Below are positions 1 to 63,424 of a DNA stretch of 63,424 bases, in pieces. Source of the DNA: a virus. The stretch lies in IMG/VR virus record IMGVR_UViG_3300013093_000002, positions 1 to 63,424 of that record. One strand, 5' to 3'. Position 1 is the first letter of the stretch. Each line of letters starts with the position of its first letter. The notes under the pieces were generated by a model. That model did not search any database. It saw only the letters and a program-made list of their open reading frames with translations, and was not told the origin of the DNA. The translations under genes were made by a program, and so were the position numbers.

Positions 1-123
1 CCATGTTTTAGGCTTAAATGTGCGTGGTTTTTGTGTTGTAAGTGCTTGATTTTAAACGAGGTTCATAGGTTCGGGGTTAGTAAACTTCCGTTATTGTCCC
101 ATGAACCAAGTTTTTGAAATGGA
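1..123. repeat. Terminal direct repeat, left copy
   Basis: The first 123 bases are identical to 63302-63424. This closes the contig into a circle of 63,301 bp. It may be the overlap left when a circular or circularly permuted genome is assembled, or a true short terminal repeat; the sequence alone cannot decide. Confidence 0.95.
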
Positions 124-448
124 CTTAGATGTGCTAAGTATATGATTTATATATATAATATATATTTAATATAATAATAGATTGATTAAAAAATAGGCAG
201 GTTCATGAGTTCATATTGACTCACAATAGCGAATGGGTTTGGTCAAAGTAAAATACACTGCGAACTCCGTTCGCACGAAGTCCATTCTCACGAAACCTAG
301 TGTCCTATGTGTTTAAACCATGAACTTATGAACCTTCGTTTAAAATCAATAACTTAGTAAAAGTAAAACATGAACTTGTTCATGAACCACATTTAGAGCT
401 TGGTCTTATACTTAGTAACTGGTTTCTAAAAACTGGTTTCACAGGGCG

Positions 449-474
449 AAAAAAAAGCCCACCGAAGTGGGCTT
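449..474 (-). terminator. Intrinsic terminator with UUCG tetraloop
   Basis: Read on the minus strand, an 8-bp stem AAGCCCAC/GTGGGCTT encloses a TTCG loop closed by C-G and is followed by a T run (A run 449-456 on plus). It lies just downstream of the leftward gene 498-1160 and would end that transcript. Confidence 0.92.
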
Positions 475-1217: not shown

Positions 1218-1245
1218 ATTATGAACCATGTATCTATTTTGTCAA
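1218..1245 (-). promoter_or_regulatory. Sigma70-type promoter for gene 498-1160
   Basis: On the minus strand TTGACA (1240-1245) is followed after 16 bases by CATAAT (1218-1223). An ATGAACC/GGTTCAT element at 1221-1227 overlaps the -10 box, a possible operator. Confidence 0.7.
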
Positions 1246-2303: not shown

Positions 2304-2903
2304 ATGGTAAGTAAAAAGATACAAGAAGTTCCCGAAGACGACGGATTTAATTCAGTAATCATGATGCCTGACATCGATGAGGACGTCCCTTTACCTAAAA
2401 ATGCTTCTGATGCTATGCCCGAACTAAGTGTCGATGAAGAAATTAAAATGCGAGCCAGTACTATAAAGTTAATATCAGATTTAAAAGGTGAGAATATAGA
2501 ACCTGATAAGAACGATATTAGAGAAGCAACTAGGTTAGCACAAGAGATGATAAGTAATCCTGATATAAGACCTGAGTTTGCCCACTACCCAAATGAAACG
2601 ATGGCGTTCCTAGCAGGACTCGTTGCACAAAGTAACTGTATGATTGTGAAAGACTTAGCAGAATTTAAGATGTACGTCGTTAATAATTTAGTCCGCTTGG
2701 CAGAGGGAGCTAAGAATGATAAGGATAAGATTGCTGCGTTAAAAGCGATTGGTGAAGTAGACGGTGTAGATGCGTTTAAACGTAAATCAGAAATTACACA
2801 CATATCTAAATCTATGGAAGAAGTAGAAGACAGTCTATTAAAAACATTAGCAAGTATTGAAGGCAAGATTATAGATGTAGAAGAAGTTGTTGATGAAGAA
2901 TAG
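2304..2903 (+). CDS. Putative terminase small subunit
   Basis: A 199-residue acidic protein directly upstream of the large terminase, with which it overlaps. The N-terminus (1-45) is Pro/Asp-rich and probably disordered. The centre (about 60-150) is helical. No sequence motif proves the role; it is inferred from position and size. Terminase small subunits recognise phage DNA and regulate the motor. The ribosome site before ATG 2304 is weak, so a different start cannot be ruled out. Confidence 0.6.
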   Translation: MVSKKIQEVPEDDGFNSVIMMPDIDEDVPLPKNASDAMPELSVDEEIKMRASTIKLISDLKGENIEPDKNDIREATRLAQEMISNPDIRPEFAHYPNETMAFLAGLVAQSNCMIVKDLAEFKMYVVNNLVRLAEGAKNDKDKIAALKAIGEVDGVDAFKRKSEITHISKSMEEVEDSLLKTLASIEGKIIDVEEVVDEE

Positions 2904-4428
2904 AAAGTTAACACCTGAAGATATTATTAAATTAAAGAATGCGCTTCCTCATATGACTGAGGAAATGAAACGCAAGACTGAATTAGAGTTAGCAGAGTAC
3001 GATAAGAAGTTAACACAAAAAGTAGGAAAGGTTAGGTTTTTAGATTTTGTTAAACATGTATATCCTGGTTATAAAGTTGGTGCACACCATAAGCACTTGG
3101 CTCAAATCTTTGAAGACATTGCTGCAGGCAAAAAGAAGAGAGTCATTGTTAACATTGCTCCAAGGCACGGGAAGTCTGAGCTTATATCATATCTTGCTCC
3201 TGCCTGGTTTCTGGGAAAGTACCCAGATAAGAAAATTATTATGGCGTCACATACTGCTGACCTTGCTGTTAACTTTGGACGCCGTGTGCGTAACCTTGTT
3301 GGTAGTGAGTTGTATAAAGATATATTTCCTACAGTAGAGTTACAGGCGGATAGTAAAAGTGCATCACGATGGGGGACTAATTTTAATGGCGAGTACTTTG
3401 CTATCGGTGTGGGGGGCGCTCTTGCTGGGCGCGGCGCCGATCTTTTTATTATCGATGATCCTCATTCAGAACAGGATGCGAAGCTTGGACGTCCGGATGT
3501 TTTTCTACCTGCTTATGAGTGGTTTCAGTCTGGTCCTCTTCAGCGTCTTATGCCTGGTGGAGCGATTATTGTAGTAATGACAAGATGGTCTAAGTTAGAT
3601 TTAACTGGGCAGATTGTTAATCAGATGGTAAAGAATGAAGGATCGGAAGAGTGGGAAGTAGTAGAGTTCCCAGCGATCATAGAAAATAAAGATGGTGAAG
3701 AAAAAAGTTTATGGCCTGAGTTCTGGCCACTAGAAGAATTATTAGCTAAGAAACAAGCACTTGATGTACGTTACTGGAATGCGCAGTATTTACAAAACCC
3801 TACATCAGAAGAAGGTGCACTAATTAAAAGAGAATGGTGGAACATATGGGAGAAAGATATGCCTCCTCAATGCGAGTTCACCATCATGAGTTTAGACGCA
3901 GCACAAGAAGCAAACAATAGAGCGGACTATAACGCGCTCACGACTTGGGGCGTCTTCTTTAATGAAGAGACAAATAACTATAACATTATTCTTTTAAACT
4001 CTATTAAGGAACGGTTGGAGTATCCTGAGTTAAAAGATTTAGTGATACGTGAATATAAAGATTGGGAACCTGATGCATTCATTGTGGAAAAGAAATCTAA
4101 CGGTGCTGTACTTTATCAAGAGATGCGTCGCATGGGTATACCTGTGGGTGAATTTACTCCTGGTAAAGGGCAAGACAAAATATCAAGAGTTAATGCAGTA
4201 TCAGATCTTTTCAGATCAGGAATTGTTTGGATTCCCGATAGACGATGGGCAAAAGAAGTTGTAGAAGAATGTAATGACTTTCCAAGTGGTGCTAATGATG
4301 ACTTGGTTGACTCGACAACACTAGCATTAATGCGGTTTAGACAAGGTGGGTTTATTAGATTACCAAGTGATGAACCTGAAGATATAGCAAGTTATAAAGG
4401 TAATAGGAATAGGTTGTACTTAGTATGA
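2893..4428 (+). CDS. terL: Terminase large subunit (packaging ATPase and nuclease)
   Basis: A 511-residue motor protein that pumps DNA into the prohead and cuts concatemers. The ATPase part shows a Walker A variant APRHGKSE (about residues 89-96) and Walker B DLFIIDDP (about 183-190). The C-terminal RNase H-like nuclease begins near SLDAAQE, with a later acidic pair in NDDLVDS. Two upstream in-frame TTG codons exist, but ATG 2893 gives the better N-terminus MKNRKL. It overlaps the small-subunit gene by 11 bases, so the two are probably translationally coupled. Confidence 0.95.
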   Translation: MKNRKLTPEDIIKLKNALPHMTEEMKRKTELELAEYDKKLTQKVGKVRFLDFVKHVYPGYKVGAHHKHLAQIFEDIAAGKKKRVIVNIAPRHGKSELISYLAPAWFLGKYPDKKIIMASHTADLAVNFGRRVRNLVGSELYKDIFPTVELQADSKSASRWGTNFNGEYFAIGVGGALAGRGADLFIIDDPHSEQDAKLGRPDVFLPAYEWFQSGPLQRLMPGGAIIVVMTRWSKLDLTGQIVNQMVKNEGSEEWEVVEFPAIIENKDGEEKSLWPEFWPLEELLAKKQALDVRYWNAQYLQNPTSEEGALIKREWWNIWEKDMPPQCEFTIMSLDAAQEANNRADYNALTTWGVFFNEETNNYNIILLNSIKERLEYPELKDLVIREYKDWEPDAFIVEKKSNGAVLYQEMRRMGIPVGEFTPGKGQDKISRVNAVSDLFRSGIVWIPDRRWAKEVVEECNDFPSGANDDLVDSTTLALMRFRQGGFIRLPSDEPEDIASYKGNRNRLYLV

Positions 4429-38200: not shown

Positions 38201-40973
38201 ATTACAAGCTGCTATTGAGGGTAAACCAGCAACTTATGTTGACGCAGGTAAAGGTTTACTACAAAAAGTTAAACACTTCTCTATTATTACAGACTCTCCA
38301 GGACGTGAGCATGATGTAGAAGAATTATTATCATCACCTAATGCCATACTAGATAAACTTCCTGAGTTTGATAATACATTTAAAGATAAAGCACTAAATT
38401 GGTATTCTAAAGCAACAGAAGGCATGCGTAAGTATTGGTTAGGTGCATTAGAATTATCTAAATTACATATGTTGTATGGTAAAGAACTACCTTCTATTAA
38501 AACATTAGAAACAGCAGTTAAAGATAGAAATCATTTCCACGTAATAGAAAGAAAGCATATAGATAATCTTGCTAATAAAGGCATTATTGCTATCCAGAAA
38601 TATTCTAAACCTATTGTAGATAAATTTAATAATACTATACATGAATTATCTCGCTTAGATATTGATCCTAGAGACCCTAAAAATAAAGACCATGAGTTAG
38701 TAAAATCATTTAATTCTTTACCAGAAGAACTAAAATCTTTAGCTAAAGATATTGTTAATAGTTATGAAGATTATAGAAATAAATATGTAGACTTTGTAGC
38801 TAATGCAGTGCCAAGCAAGTCTATGCAGATTAGGAAAAAGTTTGAGTCCTCTCAAAAACCGTTTTATGTACCGTTATTACGTAGAGGTCAATACTGGTTG
38901 CAATATATGAATCCTAATGGTGAAATGACTTCTATTGCTAAAGATTCTCCTAGAGAAATAAATATGATTAAGGATGCCTTAGTAAAACAAGGTATGAATC
39001 CTAAAGATATTAAACTCTATTCTAAATTACAAGATATTAGTCATAGAACTGCGCCTCCATCAGGTTTTGTAGCCGACGTATTAAAGATTATGAAAGAAGG
39101 TGGTGCAACTGAGAAGTCAATGGATGATATGTACCATACCTATTTATCATTATTCCCAACAGAATCTATTAGACAATCATTTAATCAAAGACGTGGTGAC
39201 TTAGGATATATTCAAGATTTAGTTCAAGGCTATGCAAGGACAGCTCCTAAGATGGCTAGTCAATTAGCTAATTTAAAATATGCCCCAGAAATTGATAAAG
39301 CTTATTCTAATTTAAAAGAAGATTTTATTAAAAGTGGTGAGAATAAAGTAGCTTCAGATGTTATGCATGAACTTATGGAAAGACGTAAATTCATTGATAA
39401 TCCATCTGCTGAATGGTGGGCTTATCGTGCAAGCCAAGCTAACTTCTTAATGAGTATTGCAGGTAACATATCATCTGCATTAGTGAATACTACAGCTGTT
39501 CCTATGGTAGCTTTACAACATATTGCCGTAGATAAAAATGGTAATTATAATTATACTAGAGCTAGTGAGGCTATTGCTAAAGCTACTAAGATGTTCTTCC
39601 AAGGCGGATATGATGATAGCAAAGAGTATTTAGGTAAAATATATAGAATTAGGACATTTGGTGTTAATGACAAGTTATCTCCTGAATATAAAGATTTGCA
39701 TGATAAATTATTAAAAAGCGGTGTATTAACCTATAGTATTGGTCGAGAATTACATAGTATGGCTGAAGCACCATCTGACAAATACCAACTTTGGAAAGAT
39801 AAAGCTAATACATTATTAGGCCTTACATTTGAAGGTACAGAAAGATTTAATAGAGAAGTAACTGCATTAGCAGCATATGATGTTGCTCGTCAAGACGGAT
39901 ATACTCATGAGCAAGCTATACAAAAAGCTATTGACCTTACAGCTAGAGTTCATACGGAAGCTATACCAGAAGCAGGTCCACGTTGGTTACAGGGTCAAGG
40001 TGCTATTGGTGGACTACAAAAAATTGCATTAACATTTAAACGCTTTACATTAGCACAGATTCTTAATATGGGTATGTTGTCTAGAGATATGTTTAAAGAT
40101 GCTAAAACTGCTGATGAACTTATGGCTAAAAAGATTGCAGTTAAACAATTATTAGGTATCTTAGGTGCTACTTATATGTTTGCAGGATTACAAGGATTAC
40201 CTGGTTATGGTCTAGTAAACGCAGCAGCAAACTTCTTTGGTAGCGATTCTGATGAACCGTTTGATCTTGATGAATATATTAGAAATGCTTATGGTGATAT
40301 TGGCTTAACAGGTCCAATCAATGCAGCTACAGGTATTGATATAGCTTCTAGAACTGGTTTCAATGGAGCATTGTGGAGAGAAGATAAGAAACGTTTAGCT
40401 GATGTAGGTTATGTTGCATATGCTATGGAAAACCTAATGGGTCCTACTTTCTCTAATTTAGAGAATATGGAAAAAGGTGTTAAGCAAATGACAGAAGGTC
40501 AGTATGAACGCGGTCTAGAAAAGATGGTACCTTCTCCAGTAAGAAATGTTATGAAAGCTTTTAGGTTCTCTGCTGAAGGTGCGTTAAATCCTAATGGTGC
40601 TCCAGTAATTGATAACGTAAGTGATTGGAATAAGTTTATGCAAGTATTTGGCTTTAGTGATGCAGAACTTACAGAACAATATGCTAGATCAAGTGCTATG
40701 AAATCAATGGAGAAAACTATCTTAGATAGAAGGAAAGCATTATTAGATTCAATGTTCCTAGCATTAAGTAATGGTGATGAAAGTGCTCAAACTAGTGTAA
40801 CAGAATTAATTAGTAAGTTTAATGAGAAACACCCAGAGATTGCTATTACTGCTCAAACAATACAGTCATCTTATAAAAATAGAGAACGTGCAATTAATGA
40901 AAGTGTAGGCGGTGTACACTTTAATAGAAAACTATTACCTGAACTTCAAGAGATGTATAAAGAAGAAGAGTAA
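35250..40973 (+). CDS. Giant virion protein with zincin motif (polyvalent/ejection type)
   Basis: A 1907-residue protein, the largest here. The first 300 residues contain Gly/Ala-rich segments. About 330-720 is disordered and charged. HEGIH at residues 835-839 (HExxH) in ESLLHEGIHAATAHEID suggests a zinc peptidase domain. The last 600 residues are helical and similar to large polyvalent proteins (LQGQGAIGGLQKIALTFKRF, LMSIAGNISSALVNTT). It closes the structural operon after smaller ejection-like proteins, the position of T7 gp16. Likely ejected into the host; catalysis is unproven. Confidence 0.65.
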   Translation: MPKINVQGYGPVNFPDDMSQEQIANVIENEYIPHMKQHIAKEGFIPGVKAGLQSGLGNVETFLGENLGMPSLSEAGKQNKAEAATKYEEPYAGETAAAFQRGILPGVGTAISNVTGPVGNILGTFGPTALTGVAAAPLLPEELAGLTLSTATRRAIGTTVANGFEEAGQNIDKQKDLHPDQKVNLLAADLTGLIQGAIDTIGVPGLGKLSNKLAPQLENQATKLSKQIVDGEITHAEAAKSLSSKWTEYLGSTASNFASGAGMMTADEALRRAQAGEDVTSPEALESYKHDIGSALLMSPVFGAYHVLTGSGRGEANRKLDEAQATKTAKDQAIADAQAKREMDIKTGVMQQQPMFTEEQAPSPAGPPAPEAQGPSTLTQAEPDQINKVEQLQKQQEAEAAGQQSLFDEKGKPTPEIEQEQAKSRVQQNQEKVNTLLATPEGTKQVIDNIKDYFFDYTKADQNKIRTQLQQRMKAFTLKDEDVLSQKQKEYEQLFSVIEPVPEHELTSQKLQEAGIKGSLAAQLKDKSLKDPAVYNKVADVANDLKNTNASAAAKLLDGIQAPEGVKNVKRTKSATAGESDAVSLKSEDETDTGTSRDIKSTMGFNRVDNGRALEGAKDVNAALKEAKIYETKDESGQEYLGLGEKKEEVAKEEKAAKTPEEIKQAELDRKALLEREQKLSKKLHKAGEEASDIYASQKEGEENKNLDLSTTTPAELTEGSTFQRKFKNAKTLGDALKTLKKMPISKGQQALANLLLNTKNISDVAFETAKHPQPKDIRKKGPKTYIGEFTGEKRTMGEEASKKLINYEKFTGEYDSSENKARLYQSGNAESLLHEGIHAATAHEIDKHIDHVPDPRGAAYGVTPVAKPNSVIGKRWVRMFNAAKEAAKNRNEDYYGLDDIHEFVAEALNPHDNKFRQLLKNTAPTSKAKPRGRLPSLFTEFIQNIMDLLGVPQKYESLFHEILDHSSELFKGPDLSIDKDVAKLQAAIEGKPATYVDAGKGLLQKVKHFSIITDSPGREHDVEELLSSPNAILDKLPEFDNTFKDKALNWYSKATEGMRKYWLGALELSKLHMLYGKELPSIKTLETAVKDRNHFHVIERKHIDNLANKGIIAIQKYSKPIVDKFNNTIHELSRLDIDPRDPKNKDHELVKSFNSLPEELKSLAKDIVNSYEDYRNKYVDFVANAVPSKSMQIRKKFESSQKPFYVPLLRRGQYWLQYMNPNGEMTSIAKDSPREINMIKDALVKQGMNPKDIKLYSKLQDISHRTAPPSGFVADVLKIMKEGGATEKSMDDMYHTYLSLFPTESIRQSFNQRRGDLGYIQDLVQGYARTAPKMASQLANLKYAPEIDKAYSNLKEDFIKSGENKVASDVMHELMERRKFIDNPSAEWWAYRASQANFLMSIAGNISSALVNTTAVPMVALQHIAVDKNGNYNYTRASEAIAKATKMFFQGGYDDSKEYLGKIYRIRTFGVNDKLSPEYKDLHDKLLKSGVLTYSIGRELHSMAEAPSDKYQLWKDKANTLLGLTFEGTERFNREVTALAAYDVARQDGYTHEQAIQKAIDLTARVHTEAIPEAGPRWLQGQGAIGGLQKIALTFKRFTLAQILNMGMLSRDMFKDAKTADELMAKKIAVKQLLGILGATYMFAGLQGLPGYGLVNAAANFFGSDSDEPFDLDEYIRNAYGDIGLTGPINAATGIDIASRTGFNGALWREDKKRLADVGYVAYAMENLMGPTFSNLENMEKGVKQMTEGQYERGLEKMVPSPVRNVMKAFRFSAEGALNPNGAPVIDNVSDWNKFMQVFGFSDAELTEQYARSSAMKSMEKTILDRRKALLDSMFLALSNGDESAQTSVTELISKFNEKHPEIAITAQTIQSSYKNRERAINESVGGVHFNRKLLPELQEMYKEEE

Positions 40974-41147
40974 TTATTTAACTCGCCAAACTCTTACGCC
41001 TAAGCACCCTTCTTTCATACATACAAAACATTTAACTCTTATCTCTGCACGTTTAGCCCCTGTTTCTACGGCATAAATTAATGGTGCAGTTTTGAGAGTG
41101 GGGACAAAGAAGCTATCCCCGACACTCATACCCTCAAATGGAAACAC
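40974..41147 (-). CDS. Small conserved phage protein (GMSVGDSFFVP type)
   Basis: A frame open on the minus strand ending in TAA at 40974-40976. From GTG 41147 it gives 57 residues with FPFEGMSVGDSFFVPTL, a Cys pair (CFVCMKEGC) and GVRVWRV at the end, a pattern seen in small phage proteins. An inner ATG at 41129 is the alternative start. It follows the primase-helicase, and its stop abuts the stop of the giant virion gene with no base between. Confidence 0.65.
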   Translation of the reverse strand: MFPFEGMSVGDSFFVPTLKTAPLIYAVETGAKRAEIRVKCFVCMKEGCLGVRVWRVK

Positions 41148-41160
41148 CCATTCTATTTCA

Positions 41161-44037
41161 TCATGCAGTTTCAGATGCGATTCCTTTTAGCGTGTCGCCA
41201 GAGAACTTATCGCTAGGGAATACATAGGCTTCAACATTAACTTGAGCTGTAGCATCTTTCCAACCAGCACCCATCTTCTTACGCTTCTCTATAACTTCAA
41301 TACCTTTTTGTTTCATCTTGTAGACAAACTCTCTTGTGCTTACTTGTCTATCAATTAAGAACTTTCTAAATTCAGGTTTTGATATATAGATCAACTTGCT
41401 TGCGGCTTCTACACGAATAACTAATGATGTTCTAGGTTCCATGCAATGTTTGTTATCTTCGTTAAATGCAAGAATACCTGTTTGATTTAAGTTAATAAAC
41501 TCACCAATGATAGACTCATAATCCACGCTATTAACCTTAACTACATTATCTCTAATATTAATCATTTCATGTACAATGTGGTTATAAACTCTATCTAAGT
41601 CGTAGTTTACAATACCTTCTTTAACTGCTATTTCTCCCGCAGTCATGGCAGCTGCAATTAAATTCTCATAGAACCGATAAGCTGTATCTTCACCAAAGTC
41701 CTTTTTGAATCTAATTATCCAGTTATTCATCATGGCAGATATATCAGCATAGTGGTATCCAAATAATACTTTAATAAAATCAGGACCAGCCCAACCATAG
41801 TTATATCTAAATATATCAAATATCTCTTTACCTAACTGAGCATCTGATTTAAATACTTTAGGTTTTCTAACACTAAACTCAATAAGTCTTGCTACTTCAC
41901 CATTAGGGTCTTTCTTAATAGTAGTTAACTTATCATATAATGAATGGTTAGATGTAAAGATTGCAATCAATGATGCTGACATCTCATGGTCTCTTTCCGC
42001 ATTTACAGATGCCTGCATACGTATTTTAGATTTACCTTGTGATATCTTATGAATTAACTGTGATAAGTCTTTAGGTAATATGTTACCTACTTCATCTAAT
42101 CCGAATGGTAAGTTATGTAATCCAAGATAGCGTCCAGTCATACCGTTAGCCGTAGCTTCTAATACTGATAGGTCTTTAGGATTACCCCATACTGATAGTG
42201 ATGAATATAACGCACCTGTCTTAGCTGCACCTGATTCACCTGTTAAAGATATAGTTACACCTGATGTAGAAGTCTGATCCATAAGTACTGAACCAAAACC
42301 ACATAGTAATGTAAATGCATGTAACTCTAATCCTTCCATATTTAATTTGTTAGCTGACTCTTTCCATGCTTCGTATGTTCCAAGCTGTGTCAAATGTTTT
42401 GCAATACCCTTACATAGAGGCGATGTAGGTGAAGATAATATTCTGCCATCTTTTGTTATCTCTCTATCTCCTACTACAAACGCATCATGGTCAGGTGTCC
42501 AACCCATTTGCATACGCATAATTTCAGCCGATTGTTTTGCTACTAAATACTTACCCCAATTTATAATATAACTCACTAAATGTCCTCCTTGTTTTGTTGT
42601 AGGGTCATAATATATCCCTACGCTTGATATGATTTCTTTAAATTTTTCTGTTGCATAAACATGTTTCATTGGTAATATAAACTCTCTATCAGCATCGTTA
42701 GGAAGTATTGCAACCATTAATAAACATTCACCATCAACCGTACTAAAGATTCGTTTAACAGGCCATAGGTCATATGGCGATACTAAGACTGGTGGTTTTG
42801 CTGGTAATGGGTTGCCATCATCGTCAAACGTTGTTGGTGGTTGGTAGTATATACCGCCATTGACTCCGTATTTATAAGGTTCTAGCTCTTTAGGTAACCC
42901 AGTTAATTTACGTCTAACAGGTGCAAATCCTGATGTGCTAGGTATTATTTCGTTATTAGTTTGATGCTCTACATAAGGTGCTAGTTTAAATACTTTACCT
43001 AAAGCTAACGGGTTTGTTATCTTACCCCTGCTAGGACACTTATCACATATACCAGGATTAACATTATTAAATGTTTCGCATGAATGTGGTTTACCTTGTG
43101 TAGCCTGTGCCTTTTTAATAGTAGCTTCTCTATTGTAGCCAGGGTGTTCATCTGACATCTTATGAATAGCTTCTTCACCATCAATACAATGTTGAGCTAT
43201 AGATAATCCTGAATACCAAATAGGTTCTGATAAAGTTTTAGCATTCTCTAATATATATTTAATCTGACCGCAACCATCAGTTCTACCTTCTTCTAAACTT
43301 TTGAGTGCAAGTATTTCAAACTTAGCTTCAAAGTTATCAGTCTTATACATTGTCTTTTCTTCATCTGTTAAACCCTTTTGAGCTTGTTGAAGTATAGACT
43401 CTAATGATTGATTGACTTCTATTTCACCTAAGAATTGTTTAAACTCATCAAAGTTATATACAGGTAATTCTTCTTGACGGTATACATATGTTCTACTAGG
43501 TGGGTCTGATTTATAATTAAATGTATCAGGTGCTCGTAAGATACGAGCTACGTCCGCAGTAACTACTGGGTCAATCTTTAAGTTATTATCTAAGCAATAG
43601 TTTTTAAACTTCTCAGCATAAGGCTTCCACTCATGTATAGGAATATCTTTATCAAACATCCAGTATGCATGAATCCCATTACCTGAATCAATTACAACAG
43701 GTGGAGGAAGTTGTGCTTTCTTTATAAATACGTCTAATTCAATAAGCGCATCTGATTTAGATTTATATTCTTTTGATTCACCCACATCTAGGTCTAAAAA
43801 GAATGACCTCGCAAATATAGCATCATCTGCTTTACGGCTATGTCCGTTGAATGAACTTAATGCTACAAAGATATTAACCTTGTTCTTTGCTAATTGGTTA
43901 ATAGTATCTTCAATATCGTCAAGTGATTCTACAAACTTATGTCTTGTTCTTTTATCGCCTGTTGGTTCTATTGTAGCAATACAATAAACACCTTGTGATG
44001 GTAGTGCTTTTTTATAAAATTCTTTTATCACATCCAT
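41161..44037 (-). CDS. Primase-helicase with AEP-like and DUF927-like parts
   Basis: A 958-residue replication protein. The N-terminal part has FFLDLDVGE (DLD at 82-84) and SGNGIHAYW (118-126), the archaeo-eukaryotic primase style. A Cys cluster (CETFNNVNPGICDKCPSRG) follows near 310. The C-terminal part, with GESGAAKT near residue 600, and the FTSN segment resemble DUF927-type helicases. It would prime and unwind for the family A polymerase encoded upstream. It overlaps the regulator gene by 10 bases. Confidence 0.85.
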   Translation of the reverse strand: MDVIKEFYKKALPSQGVYCIATIEPTGDKRTRHKFVESLDDIEDTINQLAKNKVNIFVALSSFNGHSRKADDAIFARSFFLDLDVGESKEYKSKSDALIELDVFIKKAQLPPPVVIDSGNGIHAYWMFDKDIPIHEWKPYAEKFKNYCLDNNLKIDPVVTADVARILRAPDTFNYKSDPPSRTYVYRQEELPVYNFDEFKQFLGEIEVNQSLESILQQAQKGLTDEEKTMYKTDNFEAKFEILALKSLEEGRTDGCGQIKYILENAKTLSEPIWYSGLSIAQHCIDGEEAIHKMSDEHPGYNREATIKKAQATQGKPHSCETFNNVNPGICDKCPSRGKITNPLALGKVFKLAPYVEHQTNNEIIPSTSGFAPVRRKLTGLPKELEPYKYGVNGGIYYQPPTTFDDDGNPLPAKPPVLVSPYDLWPVKRIFSTVDGECLLMVAILPNDADREFILPMKHVYATEKFKEIISSVGIYYDPTTKQGGHLVSYIINWGKYLVAKQSAEIMRMQMGWTPDHDAFVVGDREITKDGRILSSPTSPLCKGIAKHLTQLGTYEAWKESANKLNMEGLELHAFTLLCGFGSVLMDQTSTSGVTISLTGESGAAKTGALYSSLSVWGNPKDLSVLEATANGMTGRYLGLHNLPFGLDEVGNILPKDLSQLIHKISQGKSKIRMQASVNAERDHEMSASLIAIFTSNHSLYDKLTTIKKDPNGEVARLIEFSVRKPKVFKSDAQLGKEIFDIFRYNYGWAGPDFIKVLFGYHYADISAMMNNWIIRFKKDFGEDTAYRFYENLIAAAMTAGEIAVKEGIVNYDLDRVYNHIVHEMINIRDNVVKVNSVDYESIIGEFINLNQTGILAFNEDNKHCMEPRTSLVIRVEAASKLIYISKPEFRKFLIDRQVSTREFVYKMKQKGIEVIEKRKKMGAGWKDATAQVNVEAYVFPSDKFSGDTLKGIASETA

Positions 44038-44330
44038 ATCCCATCTAAATATTCTTTTGCCTGTTTTAAAGTTTGGGCGGGCAATTCACCAGTATCTAAA
44101 CTTTTTTCAATTTCAGATATTAAACCTTTTATTTGTTCTCTATGAGCAGGTCTTATTTTCCCGCCTCTAAACCAACTATATACACTTCTTGTATCTACTC
44201 CAAATTTATCTGCAACATAAAGTGAAGGAAGGTTAGCCTTAACACATAACTTGGCTAACCTTACCCCTACCGACCTAGACTCTGTCTTTGTTAAAGAGAT
44301 TAGGAACTGTTCACTATATGGTCTTGCCAT
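44028..44330 (-). CDS. Helix-turn-helix DNA-binding protein
   Basis: A 100-residue protein. Residues about 30-58 (LPSLYVADKFGVDTRSVYSW) form a helix-turn-helix. The remainder is helical and charged. It may be the regulator acting on early operators, or a replication protein. It is translationally coupled to both neighbours. Confidence 0.7.
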   Translation of the reverse strand: MARPYSEQFLISLTKTESRSVGVRLAKLCVKANLPSLYVADKFGVDTRSVYSWFRGGKIRPAHREQIKGLISEIEKSLDTGELPAQTLKQAKEYLDGIWM

Positions 44331-45232
44331 TAAGTTTTAGTAGACCACTTCTTAACAATATCACTAACATCATTTACCTTTTGTGTAGGTGCTGAGTTAG
44401 CATTTTGTAATACAGGTTCTTCAATAGCTACATCAGTTACAGGTTGTGCTGTCTGTGCTTGCGTTACAGTAGCTGTTACCACAGGTTGTGCAGGTGTAAA
44501 CTCTTCGCCTTCTTCACTACCTTGATATACAGTTAACTTAACTGCTTGTTCCGCCGCAGGAGATTTAGCTTGACGTTGTAGAATTTCCATTTCATCTACA
44601 GATACTGCCGCTGCGGGAGAGAATAATAACTTAGGCGATTCTGATTTAGTATCAAACTGCATCTTAGTTACAACTCTACCTGCACTAATATTATTATTAG
44701 CAAGCATTTGAATGTATGGTCTGAATGGCCATTTACCTGTTTCTTCTTTACCGAAACATGACTTAGCTGGTATAACTAACTGCATAACGTCACCACTTGG
44801 GTCATTAGGTAATACAACTGCTGTTCTCCATGATAGACGGCAAGCTGCGCCTGTGCCTGTAGCCCCTGAGCCTTTAGCACTAAACTGACATGTTTCACAT
44901 GCTGATGATTGTGGTGTCTTTACTTCTTTATCAGGTGTTCTTGAATCTGATGACCAGCATGTAGGAACAGTCTTTTCACCTTCTTTATAGTTAGCAGAAT
45001 AAAACATTCTAGATGCGTTATGTGCCATCTTTACAAAGATAACATTCATATATCTATCTTCAATAGCACTAACTTCTTTACCACCTACATACTTACGGAA
45101 TACACCGCCTTTGATTGAGATTCTCTTAGTAGCATTTTGCGAATTACCTGCAACGGCTCTAGTATCATCGTCAAGTCCTGTTTGAATAATCTGAGGATTA
45201 TTCTGTAAAATATTCATTAACTCATTACTCAT
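44330..45232 (-). CDS. Putative single-stranded DNA-binding or replication protein
   Basis: A 300-residue protein. Residues about 35-180 are beta-rich with a Cys motif (CWSSDSRTPDK ... SACETCQFSAKG). The last 60 residues are Pro/Gln/Thr-rich and end SDIVKKWSTKT. Similar proteins lie next to phage replication genes. Ordered core plus flexible tail fits an SSB-like protein, but no decisive motif is seen. Confidence 0.5.
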   Translation of the reverse strand: MSNELMNILQNNPQIIQTGLDDDTRAVAGNSQNATKRISIKGGVFRKYVGGKEVSAIEDRYMNVIFVKMAHNASRMFYSANYKEGEKTVPTCWSSDSRTPDKEVKTPQSSACETCQFSAKGSGATGTGAACRLSWRTAVVLPNDPSGDVMQLVIPAKSCFGKEETGKWPFRPYIQMLANNNISAGRVVTKMQFDTKSESPKLLFSPAAAVSVDEMEILQRQAKSPAAEQAVKLTVYQGSEEGEEFTPAQPVVTATVTQAQTAQPVTDVAIEEPVLQNANSAPTQKVNDVSDIVKKWSTKT

Positions 45233-55647: not shown

Positions 55648-55666
55648 AGTCTACATGATGTAGACT
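55648..55666. repeat. Early-region palindrome
   Basis: AGTCTAC-N5-GTAGACT (8-bp arms AGTCTACA/TGTAGACT with TGA between). It lies in the leader of gene 55276-55632 and its last base is part of the stop codon of the upstream gene. Confidence 0.85.
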
Positions 55667-56688: not shown

Positions 56689-57900
56689 TTAGTCTTCCTT
56701 TCTAATAACTTTACCATAGGTTGTAGGGAAATTACTTCGTTGCGTTATTAACCACAATGTCGGTGATGTGATGTTCCATTTAATATCATCTTCAACATAG
56801 CCGTCGGTAAATACAATGACTGCCTCAGTTTGTATCTTATGTTTATTTATATATTCACTCACACTTGATACATGAGTTCCACCACCACCTTCGGGTTTTA
56901 GTAATGACGCAATAGCATTGTATTGACTAGGTTCAAACACTTGCATCGAATGGACTTCGGTATCCCACCATAACACACGAACTTTTGATGGACTACTTAC
57001 TTCACAAATCGTCACCAGTTCCGTTGCAAACTCTGTAAGCTCTACGCTACCTATTGAACCTGATGTATCAATCGCTACAATTAATTCACCCATACTCTCG
57101 TTCTCAATAGATGGCATATAAATATCATTGACCATAAGTCTTTTGTTAAACCTTCGCCAAGTATATTCATCACTACCACGAGTCGCACTAGATATGAACT
57201 CACGCAATACCTCACGCCAATTAACTTTTGGTGTAAGTAAGTCTTGTATGGTTCTTGGTATCTTAGCACCGAGCCTGCCTGCCAATAGACTACCTTGCCT
57301 TATTGCATTGTCTATCTTACTTGCTTGCTCTGCTACTTGTTCAGGTGACATTGTTTGTGCGTTCTCAAAGTCGTGGTCATCTAATGTTTTCATATCTGAT
57401 ACATCGGGCTGACCATTACCATTGAGTCCACTACCTGTAGACTCACCCTTAGATTTCTTATCTTGTTGCTCTTTCTGTTTTTGTTTAAGATAGTTATATA
57501 CTTCACGCACAGACCAATTATGAAACTTTGCATCATACAATGCATCATCGGGCAACTTAACTATGTTAGGGTTAAGTTGCTTAATAACATCGTTCACAAC
57601 ATAGTCGGCGGCGACATTAACTAAGTGAGGCTCTGCCTTAAACTCTTTGGTAAATCGTTGTATGTGTTTGAATGCGACATGAAGGTTCTCATGCATCACT
57701 AAGCCACATAACTCTTGGTCGGTTAGACCTTCAATAAACTTTCTACCATACTTCTTATTGACGCCGTCGGTGTATGCAGTAATATCTTTATCCTCAACAC
57801 TACTCTTACCCATAAGGATAACACCCGAATACAATGCCGTGTCAGTATAGTTGAGCAAGGCAACATGAGCCTTCTTTAACCTCATCTCTTGACTAGCCAT
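56689..57900 (-). CDS. Metallopeptidase-VWA protein (DUF2201-like), MoxR partner
   Basis: A 403-residue protein. HENLH at 70-74 is an HExxH zinc site within the N-terminal domain, a Lys/Gly/Ser-rich linker lies at about 138-165, and residues about 270-403 form a VWA-like domain with MIDAS residues DTSGS (278-282) and a TDG later. Such proteins pair with MoxR AAA ATPases, which use ATP to remodel a target that the VWA part binds. Encoded just downstream of the ATPase, with a palindrome between them. Confidence 0.85.
   Translation of the reverse strand: MASQEMRLKKAHVALLNYTDTALYSGVILMGKSSVEDKDITAYTDGVNKKYGRKFIEGLTDQELCGLVMHENLHVAFKHIQRFTKEFKAEPHLVNVAADYVVNDVIKQLNPNIVKLPDDALYDAKFHNWSVREVYNYLKQKQKEQQDKKSKGESTGSGLNGNGQPDVSDMKTLDDHDFENAQTMSPEQVAEQASKIDNAIRQGSLLAGRLGAKIPRTIQDLLTPKVNWREVLREFISSATRGSDEYTWRRFNKRLMVNDIYMPSIENESMGELIVAIDTSGSIGSVELTEFATELVTICEVSSPSKVRVLWWDTEVHSMQVFEPSQYNAIASLLKPEGGGGTHVSSVSEYINKHKIQTEAVIVFTDGYVEDDIKWNITSPTLWLITQRSNFPTTYGKVIRKED
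57425..57443. repeat. Early-region palindrome, variant in the VWA gene
   Basis: AGTCCAC-N5-GTAGACT, one mismatch. It falls in the codons of the linker region of the VWA protein, where sequence constraint is low. Confidence 0.7.
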
Positions 57901-59197: not shown

Positions 59198-60118
59198 TTA
59201 TAGTTTAAATTTATTTAAGATACCTTCTACATCTGACTTCACTTTCTCACGAACTGCATCACTCTCTCGTAAGACTTCTGAGTCTACACCTTGTAGACTA
59301 TACTCCAACTTGTTGACTGCGTCGCTAAGCCGTTTAGTCATCTCATTGTCTACGGGTTTAAATGCTTTAAATGTGTTACATAACTCTTTAGCTTTTTCGA
59401 TTGTGGTATCATATATTTTGCGTTTCTTCGTTTTAGTTTCGCCTGTGACGGCGTCGGTAGTTTCTGACACTCCACAGCAATAGCTGATACTTTCCATAAC
59501 TTCTGTAATCCGTTCCACTTGGTCTTGAATGACATGATTGATAATCCCTTCTGCTTGCTTTTCGTATTGTTGTTTTAAATCATCAGCGATATCGTTAGAG
59601 ATACTGCATCGCCAATCATGACTCGGCACTTCACTTACATATAACTTGATACCGAACTTGCTACGGACTTCATTGACATCGGGATAATCATGCCTATTAA
59701 ACATATCGCCTTGCTTAAATGCCATGTTACCTACGATTGTAGAATAGTTGTTTACAAAACTATCAAGTAACCTATTGAACTCTACCTCATGCTCAGTATA
59801 TTCTTGTTTGAACTTGGTGAGATTAACTACGGGTAATAAGTCTTGAGAGTTGTTCCACCTAAATGTGCTACGCTTCAACCAATTATATATAGTCTGACGA
59901 TAATTAGATAAACGCTTGTGGAATTGGTCATCAGCTAAAAGGTTCTTCACAAATCTGCCTGCACTTGCGTCGGCTTTCTTGAGACTAGTTACCTCGTCTG
60001 ATATACCTCTGTCTTGCTTTGTTGCTGACCACACATTCACATCAACGGACACCAATACTGCCGATGTCGCTAAAGAAATGATATGGTTCGGTTGTTCCAT
60101 TTCAAATGATAGTTCCAT
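59198..60118 (-). CDS. DUF3150-like coiled-coil protein, MoxR partner
   Basis: A 306-residue protein. SAVLVSVDVNVWSATKQDR (about 19-37) resembles the start of DUF3150, a family I associate with MoxR/CobT-like gene sets. Then helices and a C-terminal charged coiled coil (KLEYSLQGVDSEVLRESDAV). It leads the operon that has its own strong promoter at 60200-60228. Confidence 0.65.
   Translation of the reverse strand: MELSFEMEQPNHIISLATSAVLVSVDVNVWSATKQDRGISDEVTSLKKADASAGRFVKNLLADDQFHKRLSNYRQTIYNWLKRSTFRWNNSQDLLPVVNLTKFKQEYTEHEVEFNRLLDSFVNNYSTIVGNMAFKQGDMFNRHDYPDVNEVRSKFGIKLYVSEVPSHDWRCSISNDIADDLKQQYEKQAEGIINHVIQDQVERITEVMESISYCCGVSETTDAVTGETKTKKRKIYDTTIEKAKELCNTFKAFKPVDNEMTKRLSDAVNKLEYSLQGVDSEVLRESDAVREKVKSDVEGILNKFKL
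59281..59299. repeat. Early-region palindrome inside the DUF3150-like gene
   Basis: AGTCTAC-N5-GTAGACT (8-bp arms), in the C-terminal codons of gene 59198-60118. Confidence 0.8.
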
Positions 60119-60137: not shown

Positions 60138-60156
60138 AGTCTACACCATGTAGACT
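60138..60156. repeat. Early-region palindrome in leader of the MoxR operon
   Basis: AGTCTAC-N5-GTAGACT, 20 bases before ATG 60118 and about 40 bases downstream of the predicted transcription start. Confidence 0.85.
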
Positions 60157-61019: not shown

Positions 61020-61038
61020 AGTCTACAATGCGTAGACT
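61020..61038. repeat. Early-region palindrome
   Basis: AGTCTAC-N5-GTAGACT in the leader of gene 60691-61005. Confidence 0.85.
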
Positions 61039-62780: not shown

Positions 62781-62799
62781 AGTCTACTCGTTGTAGACT
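62781..62799. repeat. Early-region palindrome
   Basis: AGTCTAC-N5-GTAGACT, 15 bases ahead of ATG 62766. Confidence 0.82.
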
Positions 62800-63191: not shown

Positions 63192-63210
63192 AGTCTACAA
63201 AGTGTAGACT
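63192..63210. repeat. Early-region palindrome in the first leader
   Basis: AGTCTAC-N5-GTAGACT, 31 bases before ATG 63161 and about 35-50 bases downstream of the predicted start of the main early transcript. Confidence 0.85.
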
Positions 63211-63249: not shown

Positions 63250-63278
63250 ATTATACCCTAGTTTAAGCCTTTTGTCAA
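63250..63278 (-). promoter_or_regulatory. Perfect sigma70 promoter of the early operon
   Basis: On the minus strand TTGACA (63273-63278), 17 bases, TATAAT (63250-63255): a 12/12 consensus match. It would drive the main leftward early operon. Confidence 0.93.
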
Positions 63279-63301: not shown

Positions 63302-63424
63302 CCATGTTTTAGGCTTAAATGTGCGTGGTTTTTGTGTTGTAAGTGCTTGATTTTAAACGAGGTTCATAGGTTCGGGGTTAGTAAACTTCCGTTATTGTCC
63401 CATGAACCAAGTTTTTGAAATGGA
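63302..63424. repeat. Terminal direct repeat, right copy
   Basis: Identical to 1-123. It shows that the contig is complete and circular or terminally redundant. Confidence 0.95.

Follow-up and report, generated by a model that had tools for sequence, protein, structure and literature searches.

A predicted iteron-type replication origin with changing repeats on a kept layout in a group of tailed phages

A dense cluster of short repeats near the start of a viral record raises the question of which process uses it: replication, transcription or DNA packaging. The window, that is the whole stretch analysed here, comprises the 63,424 bases of a viral record (IMG/VR record IMGVR_UViG_3300013093_000002), and the array occupies its positions 60-388, where the heptamer ATGAACC and the shorter ATGAAC occur in both orientations. 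The original prediction, made from the letters alone, proposed either a replication origin or the operator of a regulator. The comparative evidence favours the origin half of that proposal, and the operator half is weaker. Judged from sequence, the region of about 39-388 is probably an iteron-type replication origin of a tailed phage. This reading is favoured by a layout that is kept in relatives while the repeats turn over, by an A/T-only tract, by consensus sites for the integration host factor (IHF), and by a helicase resembling SaPIbov1 Rep encoded in the adjoining operon.

An exact 123 bp repeat (1-123 and 63302-63424) marks the circular joining of the record, so that its map is a circle of 63,301 bp. 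The structural genes, starting at terL (2887-4428), are read rightward, and the replication operon (63161 to 41161) is read leftward. On one side of the array is the start of this operon and on the other the terminator of an open reading frame (ORF) at 498-1160; the array also coincides with the minimum of the cumulative GC skew.

Composition of the array

The array holds five exact ATGAACC heptamers and four further ATGAAC hexamers, and every copy listed in the original prediction was recovered exactly, including one outside the array at 1221-1227. Window-wide shuffles give 0.037 heptamers expected per 329 bp against five seen (Poisson 6e-10), in agreement with the earlier estimate of well under one by chance, and 0.20 hexamers against nine (probability 1e-12); both comparisons are post hoc. 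In a genome-wide count, such as was proposed as a check, ATGAAC is the densest of all 6-mers per 330-bp stretch of the circle, with nine copies and a runner-up of seven. Over the whole window ATGAACC occurs 21 times against 7.2 expected (standard deviation, sd, 2.7), and the reversed pattern 10 times. Leaving aside 60-388 and the end-repeat duplicates, 14 copies remain, a mild excess.

From left to right, the array opens with two exact heptamers, at 60-66 (minus strand) and 101-107 (plus strand), which through the end repeat appear again at 63361-63367 and 63402-63408 and are the same sites on the circle. Next comes the A/T-only tract noted earlier, 35 bp long (145-179), a presumed unwinding element, followed by the left core pair on the minus strand, formed by an exact heptamer (200-206) and a hexamer (209-214). 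A spacer (215-319), whose length and CACTGC core are kept in relatives, separates it from the right core pair on the plus strand, formed by a hexamer (320-325) and an exact heptamer (328-334). An outer hexamer (370-375, plus strand) precedes the overlapping inverted repeats GTTCATGAACC (378-388), which combine ATGAAC at 378-383 (minus) and ATGAACC at 382-388 (plus). The palindrome GTTCATGAAC claimed at 378-387 is seen there directly.

Three matches to what we take to be the IHF consensus accompany the repeats: WATCAANNNNTTR (39-51, minus strand) to the left of the A/T-only tract, a second match at the edge of the tract (175-187, minus strand), and AATCAATAACTTA (344-356, plus strand) to the right of the core pair at 320 and 328. 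Outside the array, the exact copy at 1221-1227 (plus strand) is joined by another at 1109-1115, absent from the original prediction. Searches for Rfam families and tRNA returned no match. A second short motif, ACNNAGT (ACGAAGT, ACCTAGT, ACCAAGT, ACAAAGT), was observed at 278-300 and near the arrays of relatives.

Repeat turnover on a kept layout

A terL scan yielded 595 relatives. Eighty loci were retained, many of which end before the array region. Upstream of terL these relatives carry equally dense repeats of different sequence. Besides ATGAACC, the types include TGGAACA, GGGAACA, TAGAACA, TTGAACA, CCGAACA, GGACACA, TATAACA, TGTAACA and others, with GAGAACA, GTGAACT and AATTACA found later, and the majority match NN[G/T]AAC[A/C/T]. 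The repeat is mostly uniform inside one genome and differs between relatives, as expected of a site whose binding protein is itself changing. The layout is common to them: an A/T-only tract, a repeat pair, a spacer, an inverted pair and an IHF-consensus site. A layout kept while its repeat letters have changed many times points to fast-changing recognition between an origin and its replication proteins.

The regularity of this layout was measured in two ways. A strict geometric search for two 7-mers and two inverted 7-mers at fixed spacing, with at most one mismatch each, matched 22 of 81 sources (the 80 terminase loci and the window) against 0 of 81 Markov shuffles; two of these matches, in L034 and L043, are due to chance in AT-rich sequence. 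The core pairs were also placed by hand in 29 arrays, a set that leaves out clade D and differs from the 29 genomes used for covariation below. In these, the distance from pair to pair is 116-130 bp (mean 120.3, sd 3.0), and a run of at least 18 bp of A/T only lies within 110 bp on the left side in 25 arrays. The IHF consensus is found within 70 bp on the right in 24 of the 29, against 0.24 expected; the distance from the right core pair to the start of such a site is 22-34 bp in 24 of the 29. Both terL and a helicase match were present on 34 relative contigs. An array was seen in 32 of them (G031 judged by eye), and the remaining two start less than 1.3 kb upstream of terL.

The spacer was considered as a conserved structure and rejected, since one of ten folded spacers exceeded its shuffles. 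That spacer, at 1721-1825 of L044, forms a strong DNA hairpin (z -4.19), which the other nine lack. No array was found in the examined stretches of Rollin and RHph_TM3_14A, phages that share the helicase alone. Prophage or host relatives amounted to two contigs from metagenome-assembled genomes, with no array in the L454 stretch examined.

ALTERNATIVES In 24 sources the array sits some 1.7-4.6 kb upstream of terL, and it might be a packaging-initiation (pac or cos) site, in which the small terminase subunit (TerS) would bind short repeats on either side of a spacer with IHF. Phage P1 pac and lambda cosB are models for packaging sites built of repeats and IHF, and the two-sided repeats with IHF consensus resemble P1 pac. 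Phage 023Pt_psg01, with a related terL, likewise has an array upstream of that gene. Against packaging, the presumed TerS (2304-2903, abutting terL) is near-identical in L086, whose repeat is CATGAAC, and in L044 and L052, whose repeat is CCGAACA; its identity is weakly supported by a PHROG TerS hit in one relative (E 9e-4). The TerS-like protein also tracks the repeats less well than a helix-turn-helix (HTH) protein of the replication operon (see below), and an A/T-only tract is not known as a feature of pac sites. We consider a packaging site very unlikely.

Some repeats of other kinds were recorded in the same regions. The array of 023Pt_psg01 (L198:13575-13796) has seven copies of TGGCACA, and this phage encodes an archaeo-eukaryotic primase (AEP) and a UvrD-type helicase. 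Phage DSL-LC04 (L199:19253-19700) has dense GTGGCCC/GTGGGCC-like repeats immediately upstream of terL. In relative G033, tandem 12-bp repeats AGGTTTCCATTT lie inside the operon (L441:11179-11260) and are mirrored in G032; these GGTTTCC tandem repeats are of another kind and were excluded from the hold-out comparison described below.

Candidate initiator proteins and their covariation with the repeat

The replication operon encodes a primase-helicase, an HTH protein, MoxR- and VWA-like proteins, DNA polymerase A, an exonuclease, an SNF2 helicase and a protein labelled SSB-like from its position only (44330-45232). In the replication origin that we propose, the iterons flanking the A/T-only tract would be bound by proteins of this operon. 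The binder may be the primase-helicase, through a SaPIbov1 Rep-like C-terminal winged helix, and/or the small Cro/C1-type HTH protein. Host IHF, or a phage analogue, would bend the DNA next to the core pair, and the A/T-only tract would melt before the helicase loads. A host DNA-bending protein takes part in several plasmid iteron origins.

The primase-helicase (41161-44037, minus strand) is the candidate initiator and joins a PrimPol part, a DUF927 helicase core (PF06048, 4.4e-23) and a predicted C-terminal winged helix. Its profile matches include SCCmec Cch (5dgk_A, 1.7e-10) and a pathogenicity-island protein (8tch_A, 1.9e-10). The last 169 residues are predicted to contain the winged helix (model pLDDT 85). 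Of the 988 chains aligned with this model, SaPIbov1 Rep (8tch_A) matches best, with Z 9.3 across 99 residues at 2.7 A, and 5dgk_A reaches Z 8.2. In a search of 50,697 phage records the best full-length match to the helicase was 25% identical.

Iteron origins and DUF927 initiators are already known. The portions of the SaPI study bearing on Rep describe recognition of an iteron origin through the C-terminal domain (PMC7581432), and a part of another report proposes the same role for the winged helices of related primase-helicases (PMC5862659). SaPIbov1 Rep and SCCmec Cch thus resemble the phage system in having a DUF927 helicase with a C-terminal winged helix, and in the short-repeat origin. 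Unlike them, the phage helicase is fused to a primase-like N-terminus and would act alongside a distinct HTH protein, and its array adjoins the operon start rather than the helicase gene. Plasmid iteron origins and the lambda ori also place repeats beside an AT-rich tract (lambda and Stx phages, in the relevant section of PMC7466680), whereas in the phage 7-bp repeats flank a spacer of fixed length, those on one side facing opposite to those on the other. No relative of lambda O was found among the window proteins scanned; the plasmid Rep families were not sought one by one.

The second candidate is a Cro/C1-type HTH protein of 100 residues (44028-44330, minus strand), the end of its gene overlapping the start of the helicase gene. 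Of 90 helicase loci, 87 contain the gene, and the three without it are truncated on the 5' side. HTH_3 is matched by 25 of 39 family members at E 0.05 (best 6.7e-8), and the predicted fold agrees; the window protein itself matches HTH_17 only, below the cut-off of that family. In a genome with GGACACA-type repeats (G004:17678-17944) the HTH gene is broken by a TAA, leaving an open frame without the C-terminal part.

The HTH protein was first dismissed as a reader, given that genomes with several different repeat types share its recognition helix; it was restored by tests on distance matrices. These covered five proteins in 29 genomes with array and helicase. G005, G014, G017, G027, G031 and G046 were excluded from the set (no array, a partial protein or a duplicate), G043 lacks the HTH and SSB-like proteins, G002 was dropped in the first test, and G002, G059 and G060 in the second. 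With helicase distance allowed for, HTH distance follows repeat difference with a partial r of 0.40 (n=27), rising to 0.50 (n=19) once clade D is left out, at a permutation floor of 0.003, and the HTH protein tracks the repeat better than TerS-like, SSB-like, TerL and the helicase windows. The second test gave r 0.41 for HTH (p 0.0005), 0.26 for TerS-like (p 0.01), 0.23 for SSB-like (p 0.02), 0.21 for helicase residues 1-120 (p 0.0125) and 0.18 for the winged helix (p 0.018).

Residue 57 of the HTH protein, which lies in the loop following its recognition helix, is Q, K or N in genomes whose repeat ends in A, and G or S in those whose repeat ends in C or T (28 genomes); residue 20 separates the two groups likewise. 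No column separating A from C/T was found among 900 helicase, 262 SSB-like, 177 TerS-like and 67 TerL columns, the last number limiting what the TerL comparison can tell. With 4,000 structured draws of the labels, two or more perfect columns had P 0.0003, a value that takes no account of how base and dichotomy were chosen; the residue-57 pattern, spotted by eye before testing, is post hoc. Of 13 further stretches held out, one was readable, that of G031 (GAGAACA/GGGAACA by eye): its residue is N, for which A is expected, and it agrees. The pairing of residue 57 with the last repeat base is directly testable.

The helicase was also examined as a reader of the repeat, and its sliding windows were mostly non-significant. 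The winged-helix residuals are positive for pairs of the same repeat type (G000-G051 +17, G001-G007 +15; sd 5.3), but the overall signal is weak. At helicase residue 780 the genomes with G and those with T at repeat position 3 are told apart without exception across all 29, but the T group is made up of G039 and clade D only.

Several observations weigh against the replication origin as we propose it. Five of the 29 hand-placed arrays have no IHF match, and the clade D arrays (TATAACA, AATTACA) have repeats and several IHF-like matches without the inverted right pair. In 023Pt_psg01 the short-repeat array occurs and no DUF927 helicase or HTH protein was detected in the 39 of 60 kb examined. 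Some 19 kb separate the array from the helicase gene, while in SaPIs the origin follows rep directly on its downstream side; no ATGAAC occurs in 40510-43145, where an origin directly downstream of the helicase gene would be. The winged helix follows the repeat weakly and does not surpass either the SSB-like protein or helicase residues 1-120. Identical HTH proteins in G040 and G041 face GGAACT- and GTGAACT-type repeats, and one recognition helix in G007, G025 and G039 goes with TGG-, GAG- and TGTAACA repeats, so the HTH protein does not explain the 5' repeat bases in these sequence comparisons. Finally, the cumulative skew has its minimum at the array and its maximum near 41 kb; the sign flip proposed as a check of the origin is thus present, but skew follows gene direction here and does not discriminate.

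The array could also be a site for another process, such as partition, superinfection exclusion or recombination, bound by some other protein; in favour of this are the 5' repeat bases, explained neither by the HTH protein nor clearly by the winged helix. The analysis met no further conserved DNA-binding protein, covariation having been tested for just the five proteins over the 29 genomes, and such a site appears the least probable reading of all. A speculative extension of the origin reading, which we regard as doubtful, is a two-protein code. The HTH protein would read the 3' part of the iteron, residue 57 setting the last base as A or as C/T, and the winged helix would read the fast-changing 5' triplet. 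Lytic phages would repeatedly switch specificity on one fixed architecture, perhaps escaping co-infecting phages, satellites or origin-directed nucleases.

A comparable case is known from the PLE satellites of Vibrio cholerae, where the DNA-binding part of the initiator (RepA_N) changes together with the repeats of the origin, perhaps under pressure from a nuclease directed at the origin (PMC8263062). The PLEs have two module classes, whereas the phage group has many repeat types on one layout, and the proteins are unrelated. Our literature search, covering few subscription papers, found no description of an origin in this phage group or of repeat turnover over a fixed layout. The analysis predicts an origin and initiator system for a phage group without a close isolate, and the many repeat types on one layout offer a natural experiment on the evolution of initiator-origin recognition.

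Promoters, terminator and neighbouring features

The original prediction had a regulator acting on both flanking leftward promoters, and this stood for one of them. The promoter of ORF 498-1160 (1218-1245, minus strand, TTGACA-16-CATAAT) has its -10 box overlapped by the repeat at 1221-1227. The replication-operon promoter (63250-63278, minus strand), a perfect sigma70-type TTGACA-17-TATAAT, has its nearest repeat 83 bp off. The copy in the first promoter suggests that the protein binding the array also regulates ORF 498-1160.

Transcriptional control might then be the whole function, with the HTH protein as regulator, the repeats as operators, and IHF looping the DNA between both sides. The Cro/C1 type of the HTH protein, which resembles phage repressors, and its rank as best repeat tracker agree with this, as does the overlapped -10 box. 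In plasmid pRN1, as in the phage, a small DNA-binding protein gene shares an operon with a primase-helicase gene (orf56 and orf904); there, in the portion of PMC4234260 concerned, ORF56 both represses transcription and controls copy number, and no AT-rich iteron-bearing origin is identifiable. Against control alone, the strong operon promoter is free of repeats, and about ten copies with a conserved A/T-only tract exceed the needs of an operator. A sigma70-like promoter left of the array is not general either, the minus-strand score reaching at least 11 in 3 and at least 10 in 13 of 28 relatives. An operator-only function seems unlikely to us, and the origin remains the preferred reading.

The hairpin that the original prediction placed beside the repeats (455-474, minus strand) was ruled out as an origin element: with its 8-bp stem and T-run it is the intrinsic terminator of the leftward ORF 498-1160, and hence no evidence for an origin. 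This ORF (minus strand) encodes 220 residues of no known family. It is hypervariable, with 73-75% identity in L012 and L009 against 98-99% in the flanking DNA.

Another palindrome, GTCTAC-N5-GTAGAC, occurs six times exactly (55649-55665, 59282-59298, 60139-60155, 61021-61037, 62782-62798 and 63193-63209) and with one mismatch at 57426 and 62011. All copies are inside the leftward operon, several of them 15-35 nt upstream of start codons, and may act as an operator or as an RNA hairpin.
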